Below, piece after piece: positions 22,134 through 25,284 of a stretch of 64,000 nucleotides of DNA (position 1 is the first letter of the stretch; every line of letters begins with the position of its first letter). Under the pieces are notes generated by a model. It saw only the letters and a list, made by a program, of their open reading frames with translations. It had not been told where the DNA came from and ran no database searches. Source of the DNA: Synechococcus lacustris. GTDB lineage: Bacteria > Cyanobacteriota > Cyanobacteriia > PCC-6307 > Cyanobiaceae. The stretch covers positions 124,001 to 188,000 of the forward strand of contig CAJAQB010000008.1 of assembly GCA_903943975.1 (NCBI GenBank), written 5' to 3'. The position numbers and the translations under genes were made by a program.

Positions 22134-23786
<1,653 letters not shown>

Positions 23787-23967: not shown

Positions 23968-23983
23968 TGTAGCAGCTGTTACA
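23968..23983. promoter_or_regulatory. NtcA-type binding site upstream of the ammonium transporter
   Basis: TGTA-N8-TACA (core GTA-N8-TAC at 23969-23982) is a perfect match to the NtcA consensus. It is centred 58 nt before the TTG start of the amt gene. NtcA activates ammonium transporters under nitrogen limitation, so gene function and site agree. I see no good TAnnnT -10 box about 22 nt downstream, so the exact promoter remains open. Confidence 0.75.
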
Positions 23984-24033
23984 GGTGGCGCCCCTGGAAA
24001 AGTTCAGGGTGAACCACGATCGCTGAAATCCCT

Positions 24034-25284
24034 TTGACTGCCGTAGCCCTGGCCACTAACGGCTTCATCCTGATCTGTGCAGCCCTCGTGTTGTTGATGA
24101 CCCCGGCCCTGGGGCTTTTCTATGCGGGCTTTGTGCGGGGTCGCAATGTGCTCAACACCCTGATGATGAGCTTCGGGGCGATGGCCCTGGTGAGTGTGCT
24201 CTGGATGCTCTACGGCTACAGCCTGGCCTTTTCCGAAGGCTCTGGTCCGTTCGCTCCTTTTGTTGGTGGTTTGGCCTGGGCCGGGCTTTCAAATTGGTCG
24301 GCCCCCTTCAACTCCAACGGCCTCAGCCACGGGGCCGTGGCGTTTTTTCAGCTCACATTTGCGATCATCACGCCCGCCCTGGTGTCTGGGGCGGTGGTGG
24401 AACGGATGAATTTCCGGGCTTGGATGCTCTTTTTGTTGCTCTGGAGCACTTTCATCTATTTGCCCCTTGCCCATATGGTTTGGGGGCCTGGGGGCTTTCT
24501 GGGCACCAGTGGGGGCCTGGGGGCCCTTGATTTTGCCGGGGGCTATGTGGTGGAGATGGCCTCAGGGGCTGCTGCTGCAGTGGCTGCCCTGGTGGTGGGC
24601 CCTCGCCGCACTTACCCCAACCACAACGCCCCACCCCACAACGTGCCCTTCATCCTGTTGGGGGCGGGCTTGCTCTGGTTTGGCTGGTTTGGTTTCAACG
24701 GCGGCAGTGGACTGGTGGCTGGAAACCTTGCCAGCCTTGCTTGCCTCACCACTAATACCGCCGGAGCCTCAGCGACTTTGGTGTGGATGCTGCTGGACAC
24801 CTACCAGCGCGGTAAACCCACCGCGGTGGGCGCGGCTACCGGGGCGGTGGCTGGTTTGGTGGCGATCACCCCGGCGGCGGGGTTTGTTAGTCCGATTGGG
24901 GCCCTATTTATCGGTGCCCTGGCTGCGCTTGTGTGTAGCACTGCCCTGCAGTTGAAGGGGCGGTTGCGGTTGGATGACAGTCTTGATGTGTTGCCTGTGC
25001 ATGGGCTGGCCGGCACGCTTGGGGTGCTGCTCACCGGCATCTTTGCCCTAAAGAGCGTTAATCCAGCAGGGGCCGATGGTTTGCTGGCAGGTAATCCCCT
25101 GCAGCTATGGATTCAACTTAAGGCCGCTGGTTTCACGCTGTTGTGGGTGGGGGTGGGCACCTTTGTGGTGTTGCAGCTGATTCGTCAGTTCATGCCCCTA
25201 AGGGTGAGTGATCAGGCGGAACGGCTGGGGCTTGATATCAGTGCCCATGGGGAAGAGGCCTATAACAATGAATTCACCGGCTGA
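24034..25284 (+). CDS. amt: Ammonium transporter (Amt/Mep family) with a Glu variant at the first pore histidine
   Basis: This is a 416-residue polytopic ammonium channel. Conserved features are the N-terminal ALVLLMTPALGLFYAGFVRG, the substrate-site Asp166 (ALDFAGG) and the second pore histidine His323 (VLPVHGLAGTLG). The first pore histidine (E. coli H168) is replaced by Glu174 (GGYVVEMASG), as in yeast Mep1/Mep3. TTG 24034 is the only usable start: an in-frame TGA lies at 24010 and no other start falls between. The cleaved signal peptide of many Amt proteins is not apparent. An NtcA-type site upstream implies nitrogen control. Confidence 0.93.
   Translation: MTAVALATNGFILICAALVLLMTPALGLFYAGFVRGRNVLNTLMMSFGAMALVSVLWMLYGYSLAFSEGSGPFAPFVGGLAWAGLSNWSAPFNSNGLSHGAVAFFQLTFAIITPALVSGAVVERMNFRAWMLFLLLWSTFIYLPLAHMVWGPGGFLGTSGGLGALDFAGGYVVEMASGAAAAVAALVVGPRRTYPNHNAPPHNVPFILLGAGLLWFGWFGFNGGSGLVAGNLASLACLTTNTAGASATLVWMLLDTYQRGKPTAVGAATGAVAGLVAITPAAGFVSPIGALFIGALAALVCSTALQLKGRLRLDDSLDVLPVHGLAGTLGVLLTGIFALKSVNPAGADGLLAGNPLQLWIQLKAAGFTLLWVGVGTFVVLQLIRQFMPLRVSDQAERLGLDISAHGEEAYNNEFTG

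Follow-up and report, generated by a model that had tools for sequence, protein, structure and literature searches.

The transporter gene and its pore

The window, that is the whole 64,000-nucleotide stretch of DNA that was analysed, carries downstream of groEL a gene for an ammonium transporter (Amt) in which a glutamate stands in the place of the first of the two pore histidines (Table 1). The product scores 443.9 bits against the NCBIfam model TIGR00836 amt (cut-off 343.3) and, in a search of its own genome, 395 bits against PF00909 (cut-off 23.2). Its predicted structure (pLDDT 86.8, pTM 0.88) adopts the Amt fold, with a TM-score of 0.88 both to AmtB (2ns1) and to Amt-1 (2b2f), and places Glu174 in helix 170-188 and His323 in helix 319-337.

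Table 1. Features of the Glu-type amt locus in the window
Feature	Position	Strand	Basis
groEL, upstream neighbour of the window Amt	22137..23786	+	tblastn
NtcA-type box GTAGCAGCTGTTAC, 52-65 nt before the TTG start	23969..23982	+	exact GTAN8TAC
Palindrome GTTCAGGGTGAAC, 19 nt after the NtcA box	24002..24014	+	upstream comparison
Glu-type ammonium transporter (Amt) gene, 416 aa, TTG start	24034..25284	+	ORF; TIGR00836; PF00909; predicted fold
GAT, Asp166 (AmtB Asp160), retained	24529..24531	+	alignment
GAG, Glu174, replaces first pore histidine (AmtB His168)	24553..24555	+	HMMER alignments to E. coli AmtB
GTG, Val319 (AmtB pore Val314)	24988..24990	+	alignment
CAT, His323, second pore histidine (AmtB His318), retained	25000..25002	+	alignment

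A first-pass annotation of the DNA had assigned Glu174 to the position of AmtB His168 and had considered the aspartate and the second histidine to be kept. HMMER alignments to E. coli AmtB, which are free of gaps nearby, bear out these three assignments. The residues of the S1 site, the Phe gate and the aspartate are likewise those of AmtB: F109, W150, D166, F221 and S225 correspond to F107, W148, D160, F215 and S219. The window Amt thus lacks the proton-relaying twin-His pair of the pore, having Glu174 first and His323 second. Twin histidines are not demanded by the Amt family models, and they vary in yeast Mep1 and Mep3. Of all PDB chains, 2now_A, which carries Glu at the AmtB 168 place, scores highest by sequence (307.1 bits), against 304.8 bits for wild-type AmtB (1xqe); 2now is also match 8 in the structure comparison with the predicted model. 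The structure of the engineered AmtB H168E variant has been solved and differs only locally, according to PMC3647058. From its sequence and predicted fold, we identify the window gene as a true Amt-family ammonium transporter with an otherwise unaltered pore.

A Glu-type clade in the Cyanobiaceae

The glutamate is shared by many relatives of the host. By a hand count, the motif D-F-A-G-G-x-x-V-E occurs in 37 of 400 Cyanobiaceae genomes and 8 of 59 genera, and Glu occupies the AmtB 168 position in all 28 full-length Cyanobiaceae Glu-type sequences analysed; the 28 twin-His paralogues of the family all have His there. A sequencing error or a lone oddity is excluded by these counts, and a misalignment by the gap-free region and the agreement of all orthologues. 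The named members are L070, from Cyanobium usitatum str. Tous, and L180, from a metagenome-assembled genome that bears the label Synechococcus sp. UW140. Among 291 cyanobacterial genomes sampled class-wide (36 within the family, 255 outside), where His, Gln, Asp or Glu codons were allowed after DFAGGxxV, both Glu rows fall inside the Cyanobiaceae, and none was seen by this pattern in the 255 genomes outside. Glu is, on these alignments, fixed in a paralogous Cyanobiaceae clade and not the oddity of one gene.

The rest of the pore is equally constant. The equivalents of AmtB Y32, F107, L114, W148, D160, W212, F215, S219, V314 and H318 are unchanged in 28 of 28 Glu-type sequences, and I28 is Leu in all of them, as in twin-His cyanobacterial Amts. 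Among the pore positions checked, two differences from the twin-His Cyanobiaceae paralogues are constant: His to Glu, and Ala or Thr (28 of 28 paralogues) to Val (28 of 28 Glu-type) at AmtB 314. Across a wider set, 80 of 89 Glu-type rows have Val at this position, as do 15 of 55 twin-His rows. Among the columns listed, this Val and a replacement at window residue 331 stand out as varying with Glu, but neither reached 0.05 in independent-pair tests (median p 0.25 and 0.07).

The first-pass annotation had also pointed to a possible second, twin-His Amt in the genome, and one exists. The PF00909 search of the host genome returned two Amts in total, the second lying on contig 13 (G000:C13:263038), with twin histidines, the motif IDFAGGTVVHIASG and 56% identity to the window Amt. 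A further Amt, in some cases a fragment, is present in 36 of the 37 Glu-type Cyanobiaceae genomes, and full-length second copies from 26 of them and from the host itself are all twin-His. No second Amt was found in the remaining genome, G166, which is 73% complete.

groEL adjoins the Glu-type gene in several other Cyanobiaceae genera (tblastn); this synteny was detected for only part of the clade, some loci being too short to show groEL. One Glu-type gene (L041, G284:C36:786-2028) is split over two frames, through a pseudogene or an assembly error. In other cyanobacterial families, Amt1-type copies occur in pieces or with internal stops (L017, G055:C26:748692-749654; L016, G042:C1:109481-110733), which suggests that the Amt1-type gene is decaying there.

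The upstream region

GTAN8TAC is the NtcA consensus, accompanied by a -10 box TAN3T downstream (PMC9430850). Exact matches number 3 in the whole window against 1.8 expected by chance, and the box before the window Amt is, taken alone, weak evidence for NtcA control. Within 600 nt before the conserved domain, an exact box occurs in 28 of 28 Glu-type regions, which are not independent since the orthologues are related. Of the twin-His paralogues, 4 of 26 have one. In 500 base-shuffled control sets, the count averaged 1.9 of 28 and never exceeded 6. The sequence flanking the box varies widely among the Glu-type orthologues. A TAN3T box is absent within 36 nt downstream of the NtcA box in all 28 Glu-type regions, so that the promoter is not of the canonical NtcA-activated type.

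A palindrome, GTTCAnnnTGAAC, lies 19-20 nt past the NtcA box in 9 of the 28 Glu-type upstream regions (the window, L004, L005, L033, L034, L035, L040, L042 and L043), about where the -10 box would be expected. Many Glu-type upstream regions also have a second, often degenerate NtcA-like box some 30 bp upstream of the exact one, and L062 carries two exact boxes 30 bp apart.

Glu-type transporters in other prokaryotes

A scan of contigs for the Glu motif returned at least 118 loci, of which 116 of the 118 listed are real Glu-type Amts and two (L079, L179) are not Amts. The second histidine is retained in 107 of the 107 listed loci that reach its position, 9 others stopping short. By their record titles, the matches listed belong mainly to Actinomycetota, followed by Planctomycetota, Verrucomicrobiota, Bacillota (Desulfosporosinus, Clostridium magnum), Pseudomonadota (Acetobacteraceae) and methanogens (Methanobrevibacter, Methanoregula), a phylum mix that is no census. 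Counts by pattern cover DFAGGxxV followed by one codon; other spellings of the motif (DYSGG, DFAGS) fall outside.

Single groups were also sampled with this pattern (Table 2). In three of them, the Glu counts are inflated by the own rows of G655, G657 and G659, genomes picked for carrying Glu. All 8 Glu rows of the Actinomycetota sample are real Amts, and in Pseudomonadota and Verrucomicrobiota a real Glu-type Amt was found only in the centre genome. Four Glu rows (L237-L240, three from Pseudomonadota and one from Verrucomicrobiota) and two His rows of Actinomycetota (L258, L259) proved not to be Amts and were dropped. These counts agree with the earlier statement that most bacterial Amts keep both histidines. 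With few real Glu rows per phylum sample, Glu at the first histidine is rare overall in prokaryotes and yet far from absent.

Table 2. Residue after DFAGGxxV in samples of genomes (row totals are hand counts; Glu counts of the three phylum samples include genomes picked for carrying Glu; His rows of all four samples, save those fetched as proteins, and the Asp and Gln rows are motif-level matches)
Sample	Genomes	Motif rows	His	Glu	Asp	Gln
Cyanobacteria, class-wide	291	114	110	2	1	1
Actinomycetota	149	69	61	8		
Pseudomonadota	120	102	95	4		3
Verrucomicrobiota	96	33	29	2	2	

Glu-type genes outside the cyanobacteria have twin-His partners too. In 14 of the 116 listed loci, a twin-His Amt lies on the same stretch, within 8 kb. 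A search of 13 whole Glu-type genomes turned up another Amt in every one, always twin-His; the Amts of these genomes, whether Glu- or His-type, share 36-51% identity with the window Amt. Among 50 more Glu-type genomes, 48 by hand count have a His codon at the motif (a reading of the motif, not of the whole protein); in the other two, the motif of the His-type Amt is spelled otherwise. A His-type Amt is also present in G675, in G690 and in four Actinomycetota genomes for which the pattern had shown Glu alone. A partner, as motif or as Amt, is thereby present in 69 of 69 non-cyanobacterial Glu-type genomes followed.

Genes for PII proteins near these loci offer no such regularity. With the downstream PII gene scored by a sequence motif, a first count found it at 1 of 90 loci of the Glu type and 5 of 14 of the twin-His type; with looser spacing and added loci, loci without room being omitted from both groups, the figures were 7 of 97 and 8 of 35. 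A PII (GlnB/GlnK-like) gene follows the Glu-type Amt in L077, L083, L088, L092, L125, L139 and L162. Since some Actinomycetota Glu-types have one, PII is no clean difference between Glu- and His-types.

Recurrent origins of the glutamate

Trees were built with the residue-174 column left out, the Glu rows being named by that residue. On a tree of 144 rows, 16 changes are required to explain the Glu state, and well supported branches force 13 of these; on a tree of 56 rows under a mixture model, 14 are required, of which 12 are forced. A single Glu clade appeared in none of the bootstrap trees of the 56-row set, and one shared origin of all Glu-types was rejected by the AU test (p-AU 6.9e-6, with 27 Glu rows held together). 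At least 12 forced changes indicate that the replacement of His by Glu recurred independently in bacteria and archaea.

The Cyanobiaceae Glu clade has full support on the 56-row tree. Its six rows join 12 cyanobacterial twin-His rows with support of 98/97 on this tree. A horizontal gain from Actinomycetota is unsupported, as the clade joins cyanobacterial twin-His Amt1, on the 144-row tree with support of 96.

Six Glu/His sister pairs lie each within one genome (L065, L087, L147, L141 with L187, L084 with L200 and L105 with L182). The Glu branch is the longer in five pairs and equal in the sixth. This points to Glu as the derived state, although gains and losses are indistinguishable on the tree itself.

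The possible function of the Glu-type transporter

The functional argument rests on the engineered AmtB, for which measurements are given in two papers. AmtB H168E carries 22.28 nA against 3.38 nA for the wild type, with a Km of 12.87 against 0.8 mM, 16-fold higher; it gives no K+ current in liposomes and a weak K+ rescue in yeast (PMC9040831). It supports growth on low ammonium and is the sole variant of 14 that still moves methylamine (PMC3647058). As the pore residues are the same in 28 of 28 Glu-type sequences, with Leu for I28, this variant is a close stand-in for the native protein. The proposal of the first-pass annotation that the window Amt differs in rate or selectivity is, in light of these measurements, plausible.

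The native pore being nearly that of AmtB H168E, we infer, with confidence about evenly balanced, a high-flux, electrogenic ammonium carrier of lower affinity than its twin-His partner, made alongside it under nitrogen shortage. The outer site would strip NH4+, as in E. coli AmtB H168E and yeast Mep1, and NH3 and the proton would then pass electrogenically through a less hydrophobic pore. Maximal flux would be higher and affinity lower than in the twin-His partner. Made under nitrogen shortage via NtcA, the protein would take up ammonium rapidly alongside the twin-His Amt. The 116 real loci among the 118 listed, the second histidine retained wherever the locus reaches it, the recurrent origins, the Glu/His sister pairs within genomes, the twin-His partners and the NtcA box in 28 of 28 regions count for this explanation. 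Against it count the noncanonical promoter, the genome G166 without a second Amt, the poor complementation of yeast by AmtB H168E at 1 mM ammonium, which the authors attribute to toxic influx (PMC9040831), and the behaviour of Mep2 H194E, which gives no current in oocytes, where the protein is unstable (PMC7048316). Its weakest link is the awkward match of a high-Km carrier with a regulator of nitrogen starvation.

This weakness keeps alive the converse idea of a high-affinity scavenger, whose Glu pore would be electrogenic and concentrative at micromolar ammonium while the twin-His Amt served richer conditions. The NtcA boxes, in 28 of 28 Glu-type but 4 of 26 twin-His regions, would suit it, as would the Km of 258 uM of Mep1 in oocytes at -100 mV, far below that of AmtB H168E (PMC7048316). 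We consider it unlikely, given the 16-fold rise in Km in AmtB H168E (PMC9040831) and a native pore that is little different. An equally low probability is given to a near-neutral swap, by which an ordinary Amt of the same rate, affinity and mechanism would be kept as a second copy for dosage only. The growth of AmtB H168E on low ammonium and its transport of methylamine (PMC3647058) fit such a swap, but the invariance of Glu throughout the clade (28 of 28), the 12 or more forced changes, the twin-His partner kept in 69 of 69 non-cyanobacterial genomes and the effect of His to Glu on current and Km in vitro (PMC9040831) speak against it. A role mainly outside uptake, whether in sensing, as an overflow valve or in the transport of some other small amine, appears very improbable: PDB 6eu6 and 8qj3, which we take to be the sensor-type Amts Ks-Amt5 and Sd-Amt1, are among the matches, but the window Amt has no fused signalling domain, ends 5 residues past an AmtB-like HGEEAYN tail and has at S1, the Phe gate and S2 the residues of transporting Amts.

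A pair of transporters beyond fungi

His to Glu has been described as the only common natural variant, in fungi (PMC3647058), and the twin-His pair as widely conserved save in fungal Mep1-like proteins (PMC7048316). At the level of sequence, the prokaryotic Glu-types contradict this restriction. No published report of them was found in the literature searched, which covered few subscription papers, and they go unmentioned in the accessible parts of PMC3647058, PMC10433425, PMC10794816, PMC7048316, PMC9430850, PMC7447429, PMC4814505, PMC4852598, PMC9277239, PMC6603209 and PMC9040831.

Going further, prokaryotes may repeatedly and independently have evolved, by duplication and His to Glu change, a yeast-like pair of twin-His and Glu-His Amts with two transport mechanisms per cell, a proposal to which we give slightly less than even credence. 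If true, the two mechanisms would bring different flux, affinity and charge coupling to one cell, the fungi-only view would not hold, and pairing two such Amts would be a general strategy of ammonium uptake. Work on the role of the twin histidines in rate, selectivity and proton coupling has relied mainly on engineered variants of AmtB and Mep2. Natural Glu- and His-type Amts, on the same stretch in 14 of 116 listed loci, provide ready-made matched pairs shaped by selection. For picocyanobacteria, the window points to a second, separately controlled entry route for ammonium in a freshwater-type host.

Comparison with known systems

The closest known system is E. coli AmtB H168E (2now), an engineered protein with the same residue in the same place and a pore identical at nearly all positions checked. 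The window Amt differs in being a natural cyanobacterial paralogue, about 42% identical to it.

The annotation had compared the window Amt with yeast Mep1 and Mep3, which combine Glu at the first histidine with a twin-His Mep2 alongside (PMC9040831, PMC3647058), a coexistence shared by the host genome. The likeness at this residue stands, with Glu first and His second in the window Amt as well. As Glu arose many times in prokaryotes, the link is one of convergence so far as a tree of prokaryotic rows can tell. ScMep1 has a Glu one residue before the second histidine (PMC9040831), where the window Amt has Val322. In yeast, transport by Mep1 is electrogenic and that by Mep2 electroneutral; the Mep2 variant H194E acidifies cells more, in a Mep1-like manner, and loses signalling (PMC7048316).

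The Glu-type Amts of Actinomycetota and other phyla share with the window Amt the Glu, the Asp, the second His and a twin-His partner in the genome; their origins are separate. The nearest relatives of the Glu clade are the twin-His, PII-controlled cyanobacterial Amt1 proteins, known from Synechocystis (PMC6603209), with which the window Amt groups on the prokaryotic trees and from which it differs by Glu for the first histidine and by Val at AmtB 314, where they have Ala or Thr.
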